The notes under the pieces are model-generated. The model did not search any database, was not told where the DNA came from, and was given only the letters and a program-made list of their open reading frames with translations. A DNA stretch of 33,953 nucleotides from an uncultured archaeon (lineage in GTDB: Archaea; Halobacteriota; Methanosarcinia; Methanosarcinales; Methanoperedenaceae): assembly GCA_902386135.1 (NCBI GenBank), contig CABMIB010000079.1, forward strand, positions 1 through 33,953. Direction: 5' to 3'. The stretch's first letter is position 1. Every line of letters begins with the position of its first letter. Positions 1,859-15,997 of the stretch are shown in pieces. The translations under genes were made by a program, and so were the position numbers.

Positions 1859-2998
1859 ATGGTCTATGTTACCAGTTTCAGGTGTTTTCGCTGCGGGAGA
1901 ATACATAAACCCCATGAGATAGAGAGGCTCCCTATCCCCAGGTGCGAATGCGGCGGAGCCCTTGATGCGGAATATGATTACAGGGCTATACAGAAGGTCA
2001 TACTTCGCGATGATTTTATGCGCGCAAAGCCCACGCACTGGAAATACTGGGCGTTCATGCCTGTAAAAGACCTGTCCAGGATTATAACAATGGGAGAAGG
2101 CGGCACTCCCCTGCTTGAGAACAAAAGGCTCGGGGAAAACGGGCGTTTGCTCATAAAATACGAAGCAGCAAACCCGACAGGTTCTTTCAAGGACAGGGGC
2201 TCTTCCCTTGAGATTACAAAAGCGCTTGAGTTCAGGAAACACAGGGTCGCGCTGGCTTCGACAGGCAACATGGGCGCATCTGTGGCAGCATATGCAGCTT
2301 ATGCCGGGCTTGAGTGCAGGGTTTTCATCCCTGATATAGCCGGAAAAGAAAAGATCACGCAGATAAAAGCATATGGCGCAGAAACGGTTGCTGTGGAAGG
2401 GGATTACTCGGTTGCAATAAAGCAGGCTGAAGAATATGTTATTTCCAATAGCGACTCGTTCCTGACAGGGGATTACCCCTGGCGCAGCGAGGGAACTAAA
2501 ACGGTAGGTTTTGAGGTCGCCGACCAGTTGTACTGGCATGTTCCAGATTATGTTGTTGTGCCTGTGGGGAACGGCACGCTTATATGGAGCATCTATGAGG
2601 CTTTCAGGGAGCTTGCGCTTGTGGGGATAACGGACAGGGTGCCCCGTATAATAGGTGTGCAGGTCGAGGCATGCGCTCCCGTGGTCCATGCATGGGAGAA
2701 TAAGCTTGATGAGATAATCCCTGTCCGCGATCCAAAGACTGTAGCAACGGCTATAGCGTGCGGAGACCCGATAGATGGTCTTGCGGCGCTTCGGGCGATC
2801 CGGGATTCGGATGGCTTTGCATTGCGGGTTTCTGACGAGGAGGCGCTTGCTGCGCGGGATAAGCTTGCAAGGAACGGGATTTTTGTGGAGCCAAGCGGCG
2901 CGGTGGCTTATGCGGGCGTGGTGAAAAAGGGGTTATCCGGTACTGTTGTGGCACTTGCTACGGGGCACGGGTTGAAGGATATGTACGGGCTGGGATGA
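1859..2998 (+). CDS. thrC: Threonine synthase (thrC family, PLP enzyme)
   Basis: A 379-residue fold-type II PLP enzyme expected to convert O-phosphohomoserine to threonine in the cytosol. The N-terminus carries a short zinc-ribbon-like pair (CFRCG near residue 10 and CECGG near residue 31), usual in archaeal ThrC. The PLP lysine sits in NPTGSFKDRG (about residue 105-114). Glycine-rich phosphate-binding segments follow (STGNMGASVAAY; VPVGNGTL). The end is ATGHGLKDMYGLG. Methanogens also have a cysteate synthase derived from this family for coenzyme M synthesis. I prefer threonine synthase but cannot exclude the paralogue. The last 45 bases recur, with 4 mismatches, at 10638-10682, on the far side of the tubulin-like island. 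Confidence 0.88.
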   Translation: MVYVTSFRCFRCGRIHKPHEIERLPIPRCECGGALDAEYDYRAIQKVILRDDFMRAKPTHWKYWAFMPVKDLSRIITMGEGGTPLLENKRLGENGRLLIKYEAANPTGSFKDRGSSLEITKALEFRKHRVALASTGNMGASVAAYAAYAGLECRVFIPDIAGKEKITQIKAYGAETVAVEGDYSVAIKQAEEYVISNSDSFLTGDYPWRSEGTKTVGFEVADQLYWHVPDYVVVPVGNGTLIWSIYEAFRELALVGITDRVPRIIGVQVEACAPVVHAWENKLDEIIPVRDPKTVATAIACGDPIDGLAALRAIRDSDGFALRVSDEEALAARDKLARNGIFVEPSGAVAYAGVVKKGLSGTVVALATGHGLKDMYGLG

Positions 2999-3128
2999 TT
3001 TCTCTTACAGCCCGGAATGCCTATCAGAGTCTTCAGTAGTGTAAGCTGCCGGAGAAAGACATCGCTAACAAAGTAAAAAAGCGTAATTACAGACGATATC
3101 TATATAAGTTGAGAAGAGTGATGTCAAC

Positions 3129-3173: not shown

Positions 3174-3365
3174 ATGCCGTGTATACTCAGATTCATGTGG
3201 ATTCCGGGGAGTACATCAAAACTTCTGGGACTCTGGAAAGGATTCAAATATCCTCAAGAAGCGAAATTGACAGGCAGACTCCTGATAGGCAGACACATCT
3301 CCGCAGCAATATCTGATGCTCCAAACGAAGAAGCACCGGAAGTAATGGAAAAAATGGAGATCTAA
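3174..3365 (+). CDS. Small protein, possible DUF3303-like
   Basis: 63 residues behind a strong ribosome-binding site (ttggaggt, 6-7 bases before the ATG). The start, MPCILRFMWIPGSTSKLLGLW, and the middle (GRLLIGRHISAAISDAPNEEA) resemble the small ferredoxin-like alpha/beta proteins of the DUF3303 type. Those are normally about 80-90 residues, so this one would lack its last strand. The resemblance is from memory and weak. Its TAA stop overlaps the ATG of the next gene (TAATG), implying translational coupling to the island's first secreted protein. Confidence 0.5.
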   Translation: MPCILRFMWIPGSTSKLLGLWKGFKYPQEAKLTGRLLIGRHISAAISDAPNEEAPEVMEKMEI

Positions 3366-4144
3366 TGAAAATAAATCATTTCAATTTAATAATTAATAAA
3401 AAAATCATTTTATTGGCATTATTTATTTTCTTCATAAGTAATTCTTCTGCTGCGACTGTTGAGCTTACTTCCGGAACTTTGCCTTCCAGCCTCCGTGAAG
3501 GAGATCAAATAAATCTAACCGTCGAAATTAAAGAACTTCAAAATAACAATTTGCTAACTATAGATACGAGTTTAATTCCGGCAGGGGATAAACCTTTGTA
3601 TGATTTTGGCGAATTAAATGCATTTATAAATGAAAACAGGTACCAGCAAAAAATAACATTGAACTTGTCTTCATTAAACAGACAATTTATCTATGTGACT
3701 ATTTCTGGTAAAGCTCCTGACGCCGGGAATAATATTAAATGTGGTGATAGCGGTCTTATTATTACTAAATTTGATAATACAAAATTAAAATTCTATGAAA
3801 TCCATGCAGATGACAAATTAACAGGGATCGAATCTTTTGACCTTATAATTTTAAAAAAGGAAAATTTTGAAAATTCTTTACAGCAAATCAGCTGGTCTCA
3901 ACTTGATGATTTGAAAAAAGAAACCAGGAATTTGTTTGACCTTGGATTGGTGAACGATGCGCAAATTCTGGCCAATGATATGAAAAATATCCAGTTACCG
4001 AATAATCTTTTATTGTTCGGTTTTATAGAGATAAAAAATAATACGTGGCTTAATATCATTTTTTTAATATCGATATTGATATGTTTTATAATTGGTTATT
4101 TGCTGGGATCGAGAAAGCAATATTCTGATGATAATGAAGACTAG
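3365..4144 (+). CDS. Secreted type I membrane protein of the island
   Basis: 259 residues with a signal peptide (basic start, then a hydrophobic run ILLALFIFFISNSSAA, cleavage near residue 30). A beta-rich ectodomain follows, with a possible helical region at about 165-215, then one C-terminal membrane helix (about 228-247) and a short charged cytoplasmic tail (SRKQYSDDNED). Several sequons are present. No family is recognised. It is coupled to the upstream small gene (TAATG) and ends 17 bases before the tubulin-like gene. Its topology, outside domain and tiny inside tail, suggests an exterior sensor or anchor for the cytosolic partner. That role is inference. Confidence 0.75.
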   Translation: MKINHFNLIINKKIILLALFIFFISNSSAATVELTSGTLPSSLREGDQINLTVEIKELQNNNLLTIDTSLIPAGDKPLYDFGELNAFINENRYQQKITLNLSSLNRQFIYVTISGKAPDAGNNIKCGDSGLIITKFDNTKLKFYEIHADDKLTGIESFDLIILKKENFENSLQQISWSQLDDLKKETRNLFDLGLVNDAQILANDMKNIQLPNNLLLFGFIEIKNNTWLNIIFLISILICFIIGYLLGSRKQYSDDNED

Positions 4145-4161
4145 AAAGGAAGGTGGAAATA

Positions 4162-7100
4162 ATGCCGGAAATACAAAATATGAGCTTTCCTAGATACATA
4201 TTTGCAATAGGTGGAGCTGGAAAAGATCTTATATATACAACATTAGAGAAAGAGTGGATCCTCAGGGAGATAATAAAGCCAAAATTTACAGCCACAACAG
4301 TTGAGGTTAGGATTATAGATACGGCAATCGATGAAGAAAATAATGATCTGGAGAGGATCCAAAAAATAAATAAGAGCATCGATAAAATAGGAGACGAATA
4401 TAGATCCGATCCGAATTCTGCAAATAAAAATATTGGCAGAATAAACATATCTTACTCTTTATTAACAAAAGAGATGACTTTACAAAGCCCATATGATCTT
4501 ATTGGCATTGAACAAAATGTTAAAAAAGCTACCGGGGCGTCGATATGGTGGATAAATGACCCCCAGCTTGGAGATGACTGGTATAAGAAGGTCATCAATC
4601 GCGAGAATTTTAAAGAATTGAATTTCTCTAAAGGTGTTTATAGAAAAAGAGCGATCGGCAAAGCTATTTATTATAAAGCTTTAAGTCAGGGACTATTTGA
4701 TCTTGATTTACCTCTAACTGCCCAGGTAGATATCATAGTAGGTCTGGGGGGAGGGACTGGAAGTGGTATGGCTTTCGATTTAGCTACTAAGCTGAAAACC
4801 ATTCAACCGACGGCAGATATAACTCTTTTTGGTATTTTATCTACACTGGATGAGAGTCCGGATGAAAAAGCAAATAATTTTGCAATGATCAGTGAACTGG
4901 AGCACGGTTATTTGAACAAAGATACTCCTTTTAAGAATGTAGTTCTTATACCTATGGAGGTAACCAGGTATCCGGGAAAAGAGAAAGCATCAGATGAACA
5001 CGAAAGATTATTAAGAGAGTTCGATGAAACAATTCCATATATTTTTGTTGCATGGTACAACAACCCCGGGCAATTATTCTTCTCTAATTTACCTGAGTAT
5101 GCACCATTTGTAATAGCAACATCACAGATCGTGAGATATAATGTAGAATCAATTAAAAAACTTAAAGATAGAGTTATTGAAAGTCTCCAGGATAAAGACA
5201 TTTCTTTGAAAAATGAAGAAGAAATGTATACTAATATTAAAAAATTTATTTCGGATTTTTCTGTTTTCCAGGCAGGATCAAAGAATAGAGAGACAGGGGA
5301 GACCAGAGAGACAGGTGATGAGACAGGGGTCAGCGAACCGGGGGTCAGCGGTATAGGATTGATAAGAAAGATCGGGCTTCCCGACGAAGATAAATCATTT
5401 ATTAAAGAAAGATTATCAAGATTCAATCTTGTTTTAGAACCTGACGAGAAATCTGTCAGCGCTGCGAATTTCTTCAAAGACCTTGATTATAATTCAATAA
5501 TACACCTTAAAAAAGCTGCAGACGACGGAATTAAAGGAACTGAAAGCGATGATATTGAAAAACAAATTACAAGTATTAAATCAGAGACAGATACGATTTC
5601 TATCGAAGATAAAAGTTTTAGAGATGATGTAGATTCAACATTGTATAAAATTCTGAAAAAAGATATCGAAATTATTGAAATTATGAAAAATGTGCTAAAT
5701 ATGGCCAATAATTTCCCTGAGGATATTGTTAAAGATACTCTGAAGGTAATGATCAAGGCAGATGAGTATAGATTGGGAAGACAGCTTAATAAAATCAGGG
5801 ATGAAATAGATGGTTTAAATGGGAAAAAGAGATCTTTGGACGGAACAATTAGATCTGTACAGGATGAGATAAAGAATTACAAAGATAAAGTGGGAAACGA
5901 GCTGGATAAAAAAAGAAGAATATGGCAACAAAATGAAATTAAAAATATTGCACTTCTTGATCTATTAGACGACAACATTTCTCCAATAAGTAACGATTTC
6001 GCACTTCTTAAAGACAACCTTGTAGAATTTATTAATAACATAAATTCCCGCGGTTCAATAAGAGATATTGATAATGAATCTGTCAGGAACATAGAAAGTA
6101 TTGCAGATAAAATATATCAAAAACTTGATAACATCGGGATATATTTTGAGGATAAAAACGTTATTTTAAGAAGCCTGGCAAATGCAAAAGAATTAAAAAA
6201 GGCACAGATAGAGTTTAAGAAAGGGATACCAGCTCTGGACAAGATGATTGGAATTGTTACAGAGACAGGACGGATCAAAAGAAATAAAGAATTAAGAAAA
6301 AAGATAGATCTTAAGATCGCAGAATTAAACAACGATAAAGTGTTCGGGGTCAAGACTGTTGGCAAAACCAATACTATAGATCGTGTTTATGATTTTGATG
6401 TTAAACAAATAATCAATCAAAATAAAGATGATATCACATCAAAGATAATAAACAGGACCAGAGAAACATTTCCCAATGCTGATTCATTATTATTCGAAAA
6501 TTTAATAATAACATTGAAAGATCCTGTAAAACGCAGAGAAATAAATATTGATGATATAATAAAATCGAATTTAGGTTATGATATGGATATAACTAAATTA
6601 CAAAATGACTTGCAAAATTATTCTGTTGAGCAGGATCAAATCGTGAAAAAGGCAGAGATGATCAATAATCTGGAAAAATTACTAAAGAATAATACTCCTG
6701 TTCTTAGAAGACATTCTGAACATATGAAAAAATATTATGATAATATGGTAAATATAGGAAAAGATGTACAAGCCATGAGCAAGGCTGAGAAAGATGTTAT
6801 CAGATATATTATGGATATCCAGCCTACAAATATATTCAGGGCTACCGTTACAGGTGCTAATATAAATAACATTCTGGAAGATAAAAGCGAAGCTCTTGTC
6901 TTAGAACAAAATTTACAGGATGGTATCGAAAGGGAAATAGATAACAGGTATAACATCTTAGTAAGAAGAGTTATAGAATCCAAAGATAACACGAAAAGAT
7001 GGGATAAGACAAAGTTAATGAATCTTTTTGTAACTCTTGCTAATGTATCTCCATCGGATATAGATTCAAAGGTTGCAATAACAAATTCATTCAGTATAGA

Positions 7101-7431
7101 TAAAGAAAATTATTCCGAATGGAAATGTCCCTGGGGAGATAAATGGGGAGTGGGTATGATTTTATTCGTGGCAGGAGTCCCGTTTGATAATATTCGCAAT
7201 ATAATAGATCCAAGGGCGGGCTACTATCAATATTATAATGCTGTAGAAAAAAACGGAGCGGCATTCTTCCATCATTCATATTTGCTTGATAAAGGAAAAT
7301 TTATAAGAAGAAAGAGGATATTTAATATTGAAGAAGAAAGTGATAAACAATTATTATTCCAGAATGATAAAGATATTAAATCTTTATATTCTCAGAATTA
7401 TGAAGAGATAGACATTAAAACTTGTTTATGA
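4162..7431 (+). CDS. Large tubulin/FtsZ-superfamily protein
   Basis: 1089 residues, cytosolic, no membrane segment. The tubulin signature GGGTGSG is at residues 196-202, preceded by beta-strand VDIIVGL. An N-terminal nucleotide-binding loop candidate FAIGGAGKD lies at 14-22. This plan, with a long segment between the first loop and the glycine signature, matches the 'tubulin-like' (Tubulin_2) class of large prokaryotic proteins rather than FtsZ, CetZ or TubZ. Residues of about 540-600 and several later stretches are Lys/Glu/Ile-rich and probably coiled coil. The C-terminal 110 residues (CPWGDKWGVGMILFVAG onward) form a separate folded domain. A short iterated Glu-Thr-Gly tract lies near residue 375-395. 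The ATG at 4162 is preferred because ggaaggtgg is well spaced from it; an in-frame GTG at 4153 lies inside that site. Polymerisation and nucleotide preference are unknown. Confidence 0.85.
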   Translation: MPEIQNMSFPRYIFAIGGAGKDLIYTTLEKEWILREIIKPKFTATTVEVRIIDTAIDEENNDLERIQKINKSIDKIGDEYRSDPNSANKNIGRINISYSLLTKEMTLQSPYDLIGIEQNVKKATGASIWWINDPQLGDDWYKKVINRENFKELNFSKGVYRKRAIGKAIYYKALSQGLFDLDLPLTAQVDIIVGLGGGTGSGMAFDLATKLKTIQPTADITLFGILSTLDESPDEKANNFAMISELEHGYLNKDTPFKNVVLIPMEVTRYPGKEKASDEHERLLREFDETIPYIFVAWYNNPGQLFFSNLPEYAPFVIATSQIVRYNVESIKKLKDRVIESLQDKDISLKNEEEMYTNIKKFISDFSVFQAGSKNRETGETRETGDETGVSEPGVSGIGLIRKIGLPDEDKSFIKERLSRFNLVLEPDEKSVSAANFFKDLDYNSIIHLKKAADDGIKGTESDDIEKQITSIKSETDTISIEDKSFRDDVDSTLYKILKKDIEIIEIMKNVLNMANNFPEDIVKDTLKVMIKADEYRLGRQLNKIRDEIDGLNGKKRSLDGTIRSVQDEIKNYKDKVGNELDKKRRIWQQNEIKNIALLDLLDDNISPISNDFALLKDNLVEFINNINSRGSIRDIDNESVRNIESIADKIYQKLDNIGIYFEDKNVILRSLANAKELKKAQIEFKKGIPALDKMIGIVTETGRIKRNKELRKKIDLKIAELNNDKVFGVKTVGKTNTIDRVYDFDVKQIINQNKDDITSKIINRTRETFPNADSLLFENLIITLKDPVKRREINIDDIIKSNLGYDMDITKLQNDLQNYSVEQDQIVKKAEMINNLEKLLKNNTPVLRRHSEHMKKYYDNMVNIGKDVQAMSKAEKDVIRYIMDIQPTNIFRATVTGANINNILEDKSEALVLEQNLQDGIEREIDNRYNILVRRVIESKDNTKRWDKTKLMNLFVTLANVSPSDIDSKVAITNSFSIDKENYSEWKCPWGDKWGVGMILFVAGVPFDNIRNIIDPRAGYYQYYNAVEKNGAAFFHHSYLLDKGKFIRRKRIFNIEEESDKQLLFQNDKDIKSLYSQNYEEIDIKTCL

Positions 7432-7468
7432 AAAAATGAACAAAGATGCAAGAGATGTTCATTTTTTC
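7430..7468 (+). terminator. Perfect 13-bp hairpin after tubulin-like gene
   Basis: gaaaaaatgaaca (7430-7442) pairs perfectly with tgttcattttttc (7456-7468) across a 13-base loop. The second arm supplies a run of six T on the coding strand. It begins at the stop codon of the tubulin-like gene and sits in the 84-bp gap before the GTPase gene. It could terminate or attenuate transcription, so that the downstream genes are made in smaller amounts. Confidence 0.6.
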
Positions 7469-7515
7469 AATTAAAAGATTTAAAAAATAAGAATGGGGGC
7501 CGCAGTAACGACAAT

Positions 7516-8694
7516 GTGGGGAATCATTTATATTTTATGAAAATCGGGATAGATAAAGATTATGTCAAATTTTTTATCATTTTCGGTATAGTAACGATAT
7601 TGACGCCATTTTTAATGGATATCATTGTAAGATCATGGAAAACCGATCTGATGAAACAACTTGCCGGTGGAATTAAGTCCATTGACCCTTCCGGAACATC
7701 AATTCTTTTCAGTATTGCTATAGGATTTTATATTGGTTCGATTTTTTTACTATATTTAGATAGATATAAGAGAGTACAGGCTATATTATTGTCAATAGGA
7801 TTATTTTCAATAACCAGTTACATCTCTAAACTTTTTATTATAAATTTTAATTTAATATTCATTATTTTAGGAATTTTTATTGGAGGCTTATCAGGCAACC
7901 GTTTTAAATTCGTATATAGAAAAGAAATAAAACAGGCAGCCGCTAATATTAGTATTATCTCGGTAACCTACGTTGTTATTTCTTATATTATATTCTATTT
8001 ATCAACCGCTGATAGTGGTAATTTCATTAAGGACTCTATCGTGGTATTAATATTCTCATATTTTTTCGGGGAAGTAATGAATTATAAGTCGAAAGGCTCA
8101 AAGATCTTTGTATTAGGTCCTGCTCAATCGGGTAAAACTCTCTTTATTGCCGGTTGTTATATGAGAGCTTTGGAAATTGCAAAAGGTCCTGTTAAACCAA
8201 GCCCGGATCTTTTAGAATTGATCGACCAGATGCATAAAGAAGAAATAATATGGCCAAGACGTACACAGGAGATCAGTAAATATCAATTTATTTATTATGT
8301 TGGAAGTTTATTTCCAAAAGAAATGATGTTAAGGACTTTAGATTATCCCGGGCCGTTTATAGAGAGAATATATAAATATATGTATATTAAAAAGAACCCC
8401 AAAAAGGGTGAGAAAGATAAAAAATATGAAGAAGAAGAAGTAAAATATGAGATGGTTGCAAAAGAAATTACAAACTCAGACAAATTGATATTTATCATAG
8501 ACGGTGCTAAATATCCAAATTTTGCAGACATGGGGATAACTCAATATGTAAAGATATTGGGTAAATTGCAAGAAAATGGAAGAAATGTTAAACCGTATAT
8601 TGTAATAACGAAAAGCGATTTCTTTACCAGAGAATATCCAAATTATGAAAATGATTATAAAGGATTTAAAGAATTTATAGAAAGCAGGATCTAA
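7516..8694 (+). CDS. Six-helix membrane P-loop GTPase, truncated by TAA
   Basis: The N-terminal 190 residues hold about six hydrophobic helices. A cytosolic P-loop domain follows: Walker A GPAQSGKT at 201-208, a switch-like LDYPG at about 274-278 (DxxG), and a TKSD guanine-specificity motif (TKxD) at about 373-376. This reads as a TRAFAC-type GTPase tethered to the membrane, next to a tubulin-like protein. The frame stops at a TAA (8692-8694) but stays open and protein-like for another 66 codons, so the real gene is longer or broken. The GTG at 7516 is a weak start. An ATG at 7537 is an alternative, overlapping the end of an 8-codon reading frame (7514-7540). Confidence 0.75.
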   Translation: MGNHLYFMKIGIDKDYVKFFIIFGIVTILTPFLMDIIVRSWKTDLMKQLAGGIKSIDPSGTSILFSIAIGFYIGSIFLLYLDRYKRVQAILLSIGLFSITSYISKLFIINFNLIFIILGIFIGGLSGNRFKFVYRKEIKQAAANISIISVTYVVISYIIFYLSTADSGNFIKDSIVVLIFSYFFGEVMNYKSKGSKIFVLGPAQSGKTLFIAGCYMRALEIAKGPVKPSPDLLELIDQMHKEEIIWPRRTQEISKYQFIYYVGSLFPKEMMLRTLDYPGPFIERIYKYMYIKKNPKKGEKDKKYEEEEVKYEMVAKEITNSDKLIFIIDGAKYPNFADMGITQYVKILGKLQENGRNVKPYIVITKSDFFTREYPNYENDYKGFKEFIESRI

Positions 8695-8895
8695 AATAGT
8701 ATCTTTATTAAAGAGTTGTTGAATGAAGCATCTGCATCTATTTATCCTGTTTTTTATTATACAAAAAAAATTAATGGGGAAGGAAATGAAAATTATATAC
8801 CGCTAAGGGATGAAAATAAAAACGTGTATACTTATGGATTTGATAAATTCATGGATGATTTAATTGAACAAAATACAAGCATGGTCTGGCATTAG
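8695..8895 (+). pseudogene. C-terminal part of the GTPase, after in-frame stop
   Basis: Immediately after the TAA at 8692-8694, the same frame continues for 66 codons to a TAG at 8893-8895. It encodes a typical GTPase tail: NSIFIKELLNEASASIYPVF, then YYTKK, IPLRDENKNVYTYGFDKFM and a short acidic end. Strand, frame, composition and lysine/asparagine-rich usage match the upstream part. No ribosome-binding site and start codon suggest separate translation. The simplest reading is one ancestral gene of 458 sense codons broken by a single nonsense change such as CAA to TAA, or a sequencing error. Confidence 0.7.
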
Positions 8896-8960
8896 GAAGA
8901 ATGCAGGGAGATGAAGATCGGGGATTATGAAGAATGAGCATAAGGAAGTGAATTTTATAT

Positions 8961-9929
8961 ATGGAAATGAAAATATATGAAGATCAAACAGGGTTAATAT
9001 TTCCACATCACACAGAAAAAAATGAAAAGGCGGTAACATTTTTTAACAAAGGTGTCGATCTTTATATAGATAAAAAAGATGAAAGGATAATAATTTATTG
9101 TTTTGTACTCGCTCACAAATATTTAGCAAGAGACCAGGGGTACTACATAGTTTCAGATAACTCAGGTATAATATATTCAATATTTAATGAATTTAAAAAA
9201 AATGCTACTAAATTGCTGCATGATTTAGAATTACAGCCTCGCCACGGTGATATGGATAATGCGATATTTGATAATCTTGATAAATTTGATTTAAAAGATT
9301 ATTCTTATGCTGGAAATGTCTATAAAGATATTGATATAATTTCTGATATTATTTATAAAGAACCTGACCTGTATTTAGATTATAGAGGCAGTGATATTGC
9401 TGGGATTTTAACATTTTGTTACCAGTTATTAAAAACAAAAAATGTGAAAATAGCTGTATCATCAGAAGAAATTAAATTATGTAATATTAATATATTAAGA
9501 AACAAAAAATCCCGGGAACCTTTGGCTCCTTCCAGTACCACAATCCAGATTTTAGATAATTATAGAAGGATGCAAACAGAAAAAAAATTAGACATAAAAA
9601 GAAATGAAGAGATAGAGCGTGGTAAAAATGAATTAATTGAAGGGTTTGATTTAATAAAAGATGGAATAAGAATATTTAAAAATCTGGGGCACGATCCAAC
9701 AGACGTTATTATAGATGAAATGAATAAAGTTACTGGAATAAATATAAATTCTAAAACCGTAAAAAAAGAAAATAATTCAACAGACGACGATGAAAATAAG
9801 GGAATAATTGGCCATATTATTCTTGTTGCCATTTTTGGTATGATCATGGTTATATTAGGTATAATTATTGGAATATATCTTATAAAACATTATGGAGTAA
9901 ATGTAGAAAATTTGACAATATATAAATAG
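8961..9929 (+). CDS. Tail-anchored cytosolic protein of the island
   Basis: 322 residues, with no signal peptide. The N-terminal 180 residues look globular and alpha/beta (conserved-looking patches FFNKGVDLY, YCFVLAHKYLARDQGYYIVS, YLDYRGSDIAGIL). A charged helical stretch (about 200-240) and an acidic linker follow, then one hydrophobic helix at about 283-310 (GHIILVAIFGMIMVILGIII). This predicts a cytosolic domain held at the membrane by its C-terminal end. It is not recognised. It lies downstream of the GTPase on the same strand and shares its AT-rich composition and membrane location. It may bridge the GTPase and the tubulin-like protein (inference). A ggaag-tga stretch sits 12 bases before the ATG. 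Confidence 0.75.
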   Translation: MEMKIYEDQTGLIFPHHTEKNEKAVTFFNKGVDLYIDKKDERIIIYCFVLAHKYLARDQGYYIVSDNSGIIYSIFNEFKKNATKLLHDLELQPRHGDMDNAIFDNLDKFDLKDYSYAGNVYKDIDIISDIIYKEPDLYLDYRGSDIAGILTFCYQLLKTKNVKIAVSSEEIKLCNINILRNKKSREPLAPSSTTIQILDNYRRMQTEKKLDIKRNEEIERGKNELIEGFDLIKDGIRIFKNLGHDPTDVIIDEMNKVTGININSKTVKKENNSTDDDENKGIIGHIILVAIFGMIMVILGIIIGIYLIKHYGVNVENLTIYK

Positions 9930-9991
9930 CTGAAGATAAAAAGGAATCAGACAGGCAATAAAATAAATGAATAAACCAGATACATTAAGAT

Positions 9992-10618
9992 ATGATAAAT
10001 AAATCCGCCAGAATCATCATGATACTTTTAATTATTTTATCTTGTATTGAAATTAAAATTGTGGCTGCTGATAATATACCTGTAATATATATATCATATA
10101 TAGATCCGGATATAGGATTTTATAAAATTACTGATATAACGACGCACAATCCGGCTAAATATGTAAGTGGTACATTGACCATTAATCAAGGTGATACAGT
10201 TGAATGGGAAAATGATGCTGATAAACAATTTACCATGACGGTGGTCAGTGATCAAAAATTATTTCCAGATGTGAGTCTGGTATCTATAGGTGACAACTTC
10301 AGTTATACCTTCAATCAGGCTGAAGTATATACATTCTATATCAAAGAAAGGCATACGGCACGTCAAACTATTATAGTCCTGCCTGTTAATGGCTATAATA
10401 CGCCTGTACCTACCGCTATTATAACTTCCGCTCCTGTTGCAACTCCTGCTCCTACTTATAATCCGTCTACCACTGCCAGGATAGCAAACAATGGATCAAG
10501 TAATGAAACTAATGGAAAGACAAATTCTTTATCCTTTTCATTGACAGGAATAATGAGTATAATAGTTGGTATATCATCAATATTTATAACATATAGAATA
10601 GGAAGGGATAAAAAATAA
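9992..10618 (+). CDS. Secreted, anchored cupredoxin-like protein
   Basis: 208 residues: signal peptide (residues 1-26), a cupredoxin-like beta domain (about 45-130: GTLTINQGDTVEWENDADKQ, DNFSYTFNQAEVYTFYI, then RHTARQTIIV), a Pro/Thr/Ala-rich linker (132-165) and a C-terminal membrane helix (about 183-203) with a basic tail. A copper plastocyanin has a His after the 'W-x-N' strand and a Cys-x2-His-x4-Met-like loop. Here the first His and the Cys are missing and only one His (ERH) remains, so copper binding is doubtful. It is probably a structural or ligand-binding exterior part of the island's system. It is the last gene before the thrC remnant. Confidence 0.75.
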   Translation: MINKSARIIMILLIILSCIEIKIVAADNIPVIYISYIDPDIGFYKITDITTHNPAKYVSGTLTINQGDTVEWENDADKQFTMTVVSDQKLFPDVSLVSIGDNFSYTFNQAEVYTFYIKERHTARQTIIVLPVNGYNTPVPTAIITSAPVATPAPTYNPSTTARIANNGSSNETNGKTNSLSFSLTGIMSIIVGISSIFITYRIGRDKK

Positions 10619-10621
10619 AAA

Positions 10622-10681
10622 GCAGACGCTACCGCTATTGCTACGGGGCATGGGTTGAAGGATATGTAGGGGCTGGCTTGA
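10622..10681 (+). pseudogene. thrC: Remnant of thrC 3' end
   Basis: The frame reads ADATAIATGHGLKDM, then TAG, then GLA and TGA. The intact thrC at 1859-2998 ends ATGHGLKDMYGLG with TGA at the same place. At DNA level 10638-10682 matches 2955-2999 with 41 of 45 bases identical. The Tyr codon TAC has become TAG. The two copies flank the AT-rich island exactly, as a direct repeat 7683 bp apart. This is either a displaced attachment-site copy from integration at the end of thrC, or the stump of an older thrC. Confidence 0.85.
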
Positions 10682-10697
10682 TATCTCCGCATCGGCA

Positions 10698-10732: not shown

Positions 10733-12610
10733 ATGACCCACTACCTCGGCGAACTCCTGTTATACTGGTGCCCATCCTGCAACCTCCCCGTGCTCGGTAA
10801 GACCTGCGCCTGCGGAGCCAATACAAAAAAAATAGACATAACCCCGCCGGGCGATGTAAGACCAGCCTTCCAGTACGACATCGACCTTATCAACAGGACG
10901 ACAGAGAAGCAGTTCGGCATTAAGCTTATCCCCGAAGGCAGGCTCGTGATGCTGAACAAGGCGCCGTATGAAGACAGGATGGACGAAGTTATATTTGACG
11001 GTGCAGTTATGGGTTCGCTGCGCTTTGAACTTGAGAAAATGGGCTGGGTGTTCATCCCGAGGCTTGAGGGGGCAAGGCGTTTAGTCGGCGGGAGAAAATG
11101 GATAGTCGTAGATAAAGGGGCTGTTGATTTTATCATAAAAGGAGCCTCGGTGCTCGCGCCCGGAGTTAATGAAGCAGAAGCGAGCATCGTCGAAGATGAT
11201 GAGGTCATCGTCCTGACGCCGCAAAGAGAAGTTATTGCTACAGGCAGGGCGCGTATGAGCGCGGAACGGATGCTCACGCACGAAAAGGGCATGGCTGTAA
11301 AAACCCGCTGGAACGGCAAGCCCCAGGTTTTGGAGCAAACAAATGCCGGAGAGAAAAGAACCTGGGATGAAGCTGTAATCGCAAACATGCAAATATTGAA
11401 AAAACTTGAAGAAAAAGCGCATAGGTTCATAAAAAATGTCGTGGAAACAACAGGCAAGCCCGTGACCATATCCTACTCCGGGGGAAAAGACAGTCTTGCT
11501 ACCCTGCTTCTTGTCCGCGATGCTGTGTCGGGGTTCGATATCCTGTTCGCCGATACCGGCCTTGAATTCCAGGAGACGCTGGATAATGTAAAACAAGTAG
11601 CAGAAGAACTTGGTTTGCCTTTGAAGTCCCATTCTTCGGGCGATTCATTCTGGCAGTCCATAGACAATTTCGGGCCGCCCACCGTAGAAGCAAGATGGTG
11701 CTGCAAAGTCTGCAAGCTCGGGGCTATAACCCAGCTCATCGAAGGCAATTACGAAGACGGCTGTCTCACATTCATAGGGCAGCGGAAATACGAAAGCGAG
11801 ATAAGGGCTAACAGCGAACACATATGGAGGAATCCCTGGGTAGGCAACCAGATAGGAGCAACCCCTATCCAGAACTGGACTGCCCTGCATGTGTGGCTTT
11901 ACCTCTTCTGGAAAAATGCAAAATACAATCCACTTTATGAGGAGGGTTTTGACAGGATAGGTTGCTGGCTTTGTCCCTCGGCAAGCATGGCGGATTTTTC
12001 ACGCCTGAGAGAGATACACCCGGAGTTAAATGAAAAGCTTGAAAAATATCTTATCGGATATGCCTCACGCAACGGATTACCTGAACAATGGGTAACATAT
12101 GGTTTCTGGCGTTGGCAGGTGCTTCCGAAATCTATCAGGATGCTTGCTGAAAAGATGGGTATTGATATCGCCCCGAAATACGCTAAAAAGCCTGTCAATT
12201 TTGCCATGACTGCCGGATATAGACCTTGCAAAGCAGGAGGAGTAACAGCAGAAGGAAGCTTTGGTGCTCCGCTTGCCCTCTCCCTGATCGAAGATACGGG
12301 TTTGATGGGCGTAATAGGCAGCACAAATTCTATTGATGGTGTTATCCTGGCACAACGCGGGGATGAGACCGTGCATGTTTATGCAAGCGGGACTGTTGTC
12401 GCAAGAGGAGGGGATGAGGAAAATGCCAGGAGATTGATCGAACTTGCAGAAAAGACCATACGGCGCGCCCTTTCATGTACCGGATGCGGGGTATGCATGG
12501 GACAGTGTGCATCGCATGCGATCAGTGTTAATGGTACGGCAAGGGTCAATGAGAAGTGCACACGTTGCGGAAAATGCACCCGGGCATGTCCTGTGGTAAA
12601 GTTCGGGTAG
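10733..12610 (+). CDS. PAPS-reductase-family protein with ferredoxin domain
   Basis: 625 residues in four parts. (1) An N-terminal zinc ribbon (CPSC and CACG, residues 14-30). (2) A PUA-like RNA/ligand-binding segment (about 80-185: GRKWIVVDKGAVDFIIKGAS, then a GRARMSA end). (3) An adenosine-phosphosulfate reductase-type PP-loop domain (SGGKDS at 249-254) with cysteines EARWCCKVC and GCWLCP that could hold a cluster. (4) A two-cluster ferredoxin at the C-terminus (Cys 582/585/588/592 and 609/612/615/619). The family is widespread in methanogens and usually annotated as phosphoadenosine phosphosulfate reductase. The true substrate is not established from sequence; reductive sulfur transfer or RNA thiolation are possible because of the PUA-like and PP-loop parts. 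It probably followed thrC directly before the island arrived. Confidence 0.85.
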   Translation: MTHYLGELLLYWCPSCNLPVLGKTCACGANTKKIDITPPGDVRPAFQYDIDLINRTTEKQFGIKLIPEGRLVMLNKAPYEDRMDEVIFDGAVMGSLRFELEKMGWVFIPRLEGARRLVGGRKWIVVDKGAVDFIIKGASVLAPGVNEAEASIVEDDEVIVLTPQREVIATGRARMSAERMLTHEKGMAVKTRWNGKPQVLEQTNAGEKRTWDEAVIANMQILKKLEEKAHRFIKNVVETTGKPVTISYSGGKDSLATLLLVRDAVSGFDILFADTGLEFQETLDNVKQVAEELGLPLKSHSSGDSFWQSIDNFGPPTVEARWCCKVCKLGAITQLIEGNYEDGCLTFIGQRKYESEIRANSEHIWRNPWVGNQIGATPIQNWTALHVWLYLFWKNAKYNPLYEEGFDRIGCWLCPSASMADFSRLREIHPELNEKLEKYLIGYASRNGLPEQWVTYGFWRWQVLPKSIRMLAEKMGIDIAPKYAKKPVNFAMTAGYRPCKAGGVTAEGSFGAPLALSLIEDTGLMGVIGSTNSIDGVILAQRGDETVHVYASGTVVARGGDEENARRLIELAEKTIRRALSCTGCGVCMGQCASHAISVNGTARVNEKCTRCGKCTRACPVVKFG

Positions 12611-14946: not shown

Positions 14947-15048
14947 ATTAACCTACGCCCTGAACATAAGTTTATTTCTATGACGGCTTAAAGATGACGC
15001 TAACAAAATAATTTAAGAGGCAATAATGCTCTTAGTTTGCAAGACGTT

Positions 15049-15146
15049 TTGAAGAAAAAATGATATGAGAGTAATCCCAACTAAGGTTTGGGAATACTTT
15101 GGGAAAATCGTTTTATCTATCGCTCTTAATATGTTCATGTAAGAAA
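15049..15146 (+). repeat. 98-bp direct repeat, copy 1 (promoter-bearing)
   Basis: Matches 15677-15775 over its full length with only a few differences. It holds a small dyad (tcccaa-ctaaggt-ttggga), the sequence ttttatctatcgctcttaat, which looks like a TATA region, and atgttcat. It ends just before the ATG of the wHTH gene at 15154, so this copy probably is that gene's promoter and operator. Confidence 0.8.
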
Positions 15147-15600: not shown

Positions 15601-15997
15601 GATTTAAGTTGCAAAAATTTAAGTCCAGTGCATGTTATCCTCAGCATCTCATCTTCTTTATCAAGGAGTGCTGTTCTTGAAGAAAATATGATATGAGAGT
15701 AATCCCAACTAAGGTTTGGGAATACTTTGGGAAAATCGTTTTATATATCGCTCTTAATATGTTCATCTAAAGAAAGCTTTGTGGGCAGGAAGTTGGGTTG
15801 AGTCTGATTTTGGATAACTAGCACTGCCCACGAGTAAATAAACATCTTTACTTGATTAAAAGTTTATGATTATTTGGCATGTGCTAACGCATATGCTTTT
15901 ATTCGGTAATTGTTTTTTTGTGTTAATAGCATTTAAATAGGTTCTAATCAAGTTCACGTTAATCTAACGGATAAACACTCAAACCGGAGGATTATTA
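15601..15997. other. Intergenic with repeat copy and long-range hairpin
   Basis: No gene. It contains repeat copy 2, then an 8-bp inverted repeat (gtgggcag 15781-15788, ctgcccac 15824-15831) and an AT-rich stretch up to the ribosome-binding site at 15985-15990 of the pseudogene that follows. Confidence 0.4.
15677..15775 (+). repeat. 98-bp direct repeat, copy 2
   Basis: Second copy of 15049-15146, 628 bp downstream, with an even better TATA word (ttttatatatcg instead of ttttatctatcg). No intact gene follows it directly. A short inverted repeat (15781-15831) and degraded DNA come next, so the gene it once served seems to be lost. Confidence 0.8.

Follow-up and report, generated by a model that had tools for sequence, protein, structure and literature searches.

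A giant tubulin-like protein and a membrane GTPase encoded with membrane-anchored partners on a mobile cassette of a methane-oxidising archaeon

We analysed a window of 33,953 nucleotides (contig CABMIB010000079.1, positions 1 to 33,953) from a methane-oxidising archaeon of the Methanoperedenaceae, the genome of which is labelled G000 and consists of 10 contigs. A five-gene island, with genes named A to E, is located between two other genes and is framed by a direct repeat:

1859-2998: threonine-synthase-like gene, left flank of the island
2955-3004, + strand: left copy of a 50-bp direct repeat, at the 3' end of the threonine-synthase-like gene
3365-4144, + strand: gene A, exterior type I protein
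4162-7431, + strand: gene B, tubulin-like protein of 1089 residues
7516-8694, + strand: gene C, membrane GTPase
8692-8694, + strand: in-frame TAA inside gene C
8695-8895, + strand: continuation of the gene C frame beyond the TAA
8961-9929, + strand: gene D, single-pass membrane protein
9992-10618, + strand: gene E, cupredoxin-like exterior protein
10638-10687, + strand: right copy of the 50-bp direct repeat, at the island's right edge
10733-12610: PAPS-reductase-like gene, right flank of the island

All five genes are under purifying selection in comparison with their orthologues in the related genome G007 (dN/dS 0.08-0.32), and ratios this low throughout indicate that the ORF structure did not arise by chance. 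The earlier note on this DNA had counted six collinear genes, five of which stand where it placed them. The sixth candidate, a 63-residue ORF at 3174-3364, has no relative in any of the fetched loci and was dropped.

Gene B starts at the ATG at position 4162 and carries the tubulin signature GGGTGSG at about residues 196-202. The protein matches Pfam Tubulin_2 (PF13809) with 30 bits, above the cut-off of 27, and Pfam Tubulin with 21.6 bits, which bears out its earlier description as a large tubulin homologue. The T1 and GGGTGSG loops are invariant among its relatives in an alignment of 35 sequences. The structural model (mean pLDDT 85) has an N-terminal α/β tubulin-like GTPase domain, long coiled-coil helices at residues 535-629 and 806-873, and then a conserved C-terminal domain. 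With this model as query, CetZ2 was the best match in the PDB, and all 50 of the 50 matches listed are tubulin-superfamily structures. RecA and coiled-coil chains among the structure-database matches were set aside as P-loop or coiled-coil cross-matches rather than relatives. From the sequence comparisons and the model, we assign B to the FtsZl1 (Tubulin_2) family, with a predicted tubulin fold in its N-terminal domain. The fold of this domain is shared with CetZ, FtsZ and tubulin proper, but B is three times longer, has a large coiled-coil part and is partnered by a membrane GTPase. Besides the Tubulin_2 gene, the G000 genome contains ten ordinary tubulin/FtsZ-family genes (PF00091), which is many for a single archaeon.

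Hydropathy analysis of gene C predicts five or six membrane helices, where six had been proposed, followed by a cytoplasmic G domain. The Walker A, DxxG and TKxD motifs previously read in this domain are present as GPAQSGKT, DYPG and TKSD, and the patterns GPxxSGKT, DYxG and TKxD (G1, G3 and G4) are invariant or nearly so across 28 relatives of gene C. The similarity to DO-GTPase2 is weak, with 21 bits for the protein in the window, 22.7 for its counterpart in G002 and 27.1 for that at locus L046 (cut-off 27). The ORF halts at the TAA, an interruption of a conserved frame that had been overlooked, and the same frame stays open to 8895. The G002 and G007 orthologues have a serine in place of the stop codon. 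The residues past the TAA align with the C-terminal end of gene C in G002, G007 and G005. Relatives run on for about 60 residues beyond this position, with a proline there that is invariant in 28 of them, and the segment is as constrained as the remainder of the gene (dN/dS 0.09). Because the part after the stop is conserved, the TAA is either very recent or an assembly error. A genuine TAA would cut C off ahead of its conserved C-terminal strand. As gene C carries a stop codon, the copy of the cassette in this genome may be decaying. The sister copy in G002 has frameshifts in A and D, which makes decay of the copies at the shared insertion site possible.

Gene D encodes a single-pass protein with a cytoplasmic α/β domain. 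In its model (mean pLDDT 81), the first 110 residues have the order β-β-α-β-β-β-α-α, followed by more α/β elements, a long helix and the single membrane helix, which is located at residues 280-311 near the C terminus. Longin domains are built in the order strand-strand-helix, three strands and two helices. We therefore suggest that D may have a fold of longin/roadblock order, like that of GTPase regulators, a model-based proposal that is new here. The order of strands and helices in the first 110 residues is shared with longin/roadblock regulators (MglB, SRX, Lst4 and folliculin), and D resembles them also in being encoded next to a GTPase. It differs from them in the absence of a sequence match (Pfam gave none to longin/roadblock) and of a significant structural match: the best E value in the structure search, 0.02, is not significant, and within the top ranks of that search folliculin, Lst4 longin and KICSTOR-GATOR1 entries recur. 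The D proteins are very unlike between lineages. The two subtypes can nevertheless be aligned jointly and have a common opening motif, with an hhalign E value of 5.6e-6 across 180 columns. Judged from these alignments, the N-terminal domain of D is one family across the archaea. D had been described as tail-anchored, and it does have one helix near the C terminus, but relatives have exterior domains beyond this helix, so that the tail-anchored state is local to the copy in the window. The possibility that D is a diverged GAP1 was rejected: comparisons by hhalign and by HMM were negative, and Pfam found no GAP1 match in 28 relatives.

Genes A and E encode the exterior proteins. Gene A has a signal peptide, an exterior domain of about 200 residues, one C-terminal membrane helix and a short acidic cytoplasmic tail, in agreement with its earlier description as a type I membrane protein. 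A search by sequence found no solved structure for it. Gene E has a signal peptide, a cupredoxin-like exterior domain, a Pro/Thr-rich linker and a C-terminal membrane helix. Its match to a copper-binding-protein profile (18.3 bits) is below the cut-off of 21.2, and the mature domain is free of cysteine in all four orthologues, which excludes a type 1 copper site. A functional copper protein was rejected as a reading of E, as the type 1 ligands His-Cys-His(-Met) are missing. The description of E as a cupredoxin-like anchored protein holds for the signal peptide, the helix and the sub-threshold match, but not for a type 1 copper site, and the absence of copper ligands, as read from the sequences, is a new finding. 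Among the loci examined, gene E was found only in the four Methanoperedens copies. In other lineages its place is taken by exterior proteins with PEGA repeats or carboxypeptidase-regulatory-like domains, one of the replacements has a kinase-like domain, and the sequences of the PEGA-type group cluster with Methanogenium in the tree.

The genes of the cassette are tightly linked. Full-length B is found in 28 of the 123 genomes of the order; 27 of these also have A, which is absent from all of the other 95 (Fisher p = 2.5e-26, a value that is overstated because genomes are treated as independent). The adjacency of A and B, seen in all 27 genomes that have both, does not depend on that assumption. 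In 47 archaeal loci selected by B alone, B is followed by C in 44 and by D in 33, and A precedes B in 29. A is present in nearly all Methanosarcinales and Methanomicrobiales copies examined and missing from most haloarchaeal ones. The order A-B-C-D-E is kept in the Methanoperedens relatives G002, G007 and G005, and distant Methanosarcina copies have the same gene order. Copies of B without the usual neighbours are those at L054 and L072 and the second copy at L061. The last of these loci (L061:5770-17360, in G263) contains two tubulin-like genes of the family, the second without a GTPase of its own. These observations strongly support the view that A, B, C and D are one unit, and with it the earlier proposal that the genes form one membrane-spanning system. 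Free variation of the neighbours was the behaviour that the earlier note had set against a system; A, B, C and D hold together, and variation between lineages is confined to E, the outermost gene. The same note took the exterior members to be unusual, which they are not, given how widely A is conserved and that PEGA, carboxypeptidase-regulatory-like and other repeats occur elsewhere.

A second, more diverged type of locus is present in G020 (L043:6656-11885). It encodes an 862-residue Tubulin_2-like protein, a membrane GTPase that matches C with 131 bits and a 343-residue protein that opens with a D-like motif; a 1510-residue exterior protein is encoded nearby. A partial match to B in G006 (C31:42504-42914) is related to this second type.

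The cassette in the window is a horizontally acquired, mobile copy. The G+C content is about 30% across the five-gene stretch versus 43-50% immediately outside, and the two copies of the 50-bp repeat (90% identity, E 2e-11) are probably an insertion scar. In the island-free genomes G012, G016 and G031 the two flanking genes are side by side, which dates the insertion of the island to the common ancestor of G000 and G002. With the copies in G002, G007 and G005, the A-E cassette occupies three chromosomal sites in Methanoperedens, flanked mostly by housekeeping genes. Any match is found in 5 of the 34 genomes of the family, and the full cassette in four. Relatives of B are located on four plasmids, from Methanohalobium, Haloplanus, Halorubrum and a Natrialbaceae archaeon. 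In a tree of B, built with a quick method and with long branches, the copies from Methanoperedens cluster with those of haloarchaea and of plasmids, apart from the main Methanosarcina/Methanomicrobiales branch. No integrase was seen within the island, and carriage by viruses was rejected because viral contigs and phage records gave no match. Tubulin_2 proteins have been reported in the Borg elements of Methanoperedens (PMC9879509). In G002, additional genes for a ZIP-like transporter and an FAD oxidoreductase with a Rieske-like end lie on the right-hand side of the island (L040:8638-10968). They have no counterpart in the window, so that either the site gained DNA more than once or the window lost them. 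Elsewhere in the window, a 103-bp direct repeat with 95% identity is found at 15046-15146 and 15673-15775.

The general type of system has been known since 2010, when the FtsZl1 family was defined in a study that covered members from Methanosarcina acetivorans and Halorhabdus (Makarova and Koonin, 2010; PMC2875224). FtsZl1 proteins and B have in common an N-terminal FtsZ-like domain with GGGTGSG, a long coiled coil, a mostly helical C-terminal part and a length of about 1050-1100 residues, and in archaea both are encoded in operons with a diverged membrane GTPase and lineage-specific membrane proteins. The hallmark neighbours in the 2010 study are a vWA protein and a protein kinase, and unnamed archaeal partner families, A1 and A2, were also described (PMC2875224). 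The copy in the window has neither a vWA protein nor a protein kinase beside it (no match to vWA, a feature of most family operons, was found among the window's genes), and the cupredoxin-like protein E is an addition to the systems as described. On the Halorubrum plasmid p117, Hsp70 and vWA genes near the tubulin-like gene (L122:14-3101) recall bacterial systems of both published types.

The second published type, in which a GTPase and a tubulin form a conflict system, has GAP1 as its defining component (Kaur et al., 2020; PMC7159879). The DO-GTPase/GAP1-N2/tubulin systems share with the cassette the adjoining GTPase and tubulin-like genes, membrane-spanning partners, variable exterior domains, and a partner downstream of the GTPase with a C-terminal membrane helix. 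In contrast to them, the cassette lacks GAP1, an FNIII-repeat protein and a recognised effector (Pfam detected neither FNIII repeats nor effector domains among the window's genes), and its match to DO-GTPase2 is only weak. Of 386 archaeal genomes, 3 gave a GAP1-N2 match, two of them over the cut-off, and the genome of the window gave none. PADLOC gave no match for the window's own proteins or for the C protein of G002, and a single marginal one (E 0.0016) in the GTPase of a relative.

We consider it somewhat more probable than its negation that the cassette encodes a cytoskeletal scaffold, attached to the membrane and under the control of GTP, which links the envelope to the membrane's inner face. 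B would be cytoplasmic and, by analogy with other proteins of the tubulin superfamily, would probably form GTP-dependent filaments or patches, with its coiled-coil arms as spacers. C, embedded in the membrane, would be the switch GTPase by which B is recruited or released, and D would regulate C from its own membrane anchor through a longin-like domain. The exterior domains of A and E would sense or hold a component of the envelope, E being exchangeable. Assembly of B under the membrane could then lead to bending of the membrane or positioning of surface structures, with membrane remodelling or surface organisation as the putative output. The GTPases of archaeal FtsZl1 operons are membrane-associated, and membrane remodelling was proposed for the family (PMC2875224). 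The T6-H7 elements needed for known filaments could not be placed in FtsZl1, and a reviewer of that study doubted that filaments form (PMC2875224). We found no experiments on archaeal FtsZl1 systems in the literature, in a search that covered few subscription journals and may have missed recent work. The more specific idea that a longin-like single-pass protein works together with the membrane GTPase to govern a very large tubulin homologue beneath the archaeal membrane, and that the set travels on mobile cassettes whose exterior sensors can be swapped, is tentative, and we regard it as unlikely to hold in full.

Alternatively, the cassette could be a platform on which surface proteins are assembled or exported, with the GTPase and D as a docking receptor in the manner of SR-alpha/SR-beta, B organising the sites, and A and E as export substrates or chaperones. 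The adjoining membrane GTPase and longin-like single-pass partner recall the pairing of the SRX domain with SR-beta, the exterior proteins are variable and cargo-like, and S-layer and pilin-like genes lie beside the Methanohalobium copy. A reviewer of the 2010 paper likewise preferred transport or signalling (PMC2875224). However, the cassette encodes neither a channel nor an export ATPase, A is conserved as a partner and does not vary as cargo would, and the fold match of D is not significant, and we find this alternative doubtful.

A role in anti-virus or inter-organism conflict, comparable to that of the published GTPase-centred systems (Kaur et al., 2020), appears less probable still. Here the exterior and membrane parts would sense attack, the GTPase would set a threshold and tubulin assembly would be the effector. 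The patchy spread (any match in 5 of 34 family genomes, full-length B in 28 of 123 order genomes), the island-like insertion with low G+C, the plasmid copies, the weak DO-GTPase2 similarity of C and the proximity of Hsp70 and vWA genes to the copy on a Halorubrum plasmid would all fit such a role. Against it, GAP1-N2 is so rare in archaea and missing from this genome, D is unrelated to GAP1, effector domains and PADLOC matches are missing save the marginal one, the Methanoperedens copies sit mostly among housekeeping genes, and the system is retained by many Methanosarcina and Methanomicrobiales. The link to Tubulin_2/TRAFAC conflict systems drawn in the earlier note was thus a fair lead (PMC7159879), but the immune role attached to it is not borne out; overall its observations were partly confirmed and its interpretation partly supported. 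Least probable is that the copy in the window is a decaying passenger without present function, its neighbours kept together mainly through joint transfer: the stop codon in C, the frameshifts in G002 and the absence of the cassette from most Methanoperedens point that way, but dN/dS is low for all genes including C after the stop, the breaks could stem from indel or single-base errors of metagenome assembly, and the order is the same in distant Methanosarcina copies.

FtsZl1 is the most diverged branch of the tubulin superfamily. With an A-B-C-D core in near-perfect linkage and culturable relatives in Methanosarcina, Methanogenium and Haloferax, the membrane-remodelling prediction of 2010 can now be tested directly. 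If D regulates C in the manner of longin proteins, archaea would combine a tubulin homologue with a GTPase/longin switch, and the system would be a tubulin-based counterpart, in prokaryotes, of the GTPase/longin switches of eukaryotic membrane trafficking. Such a pairing, if true, would bear on the origin of eukaryotic membrane control.
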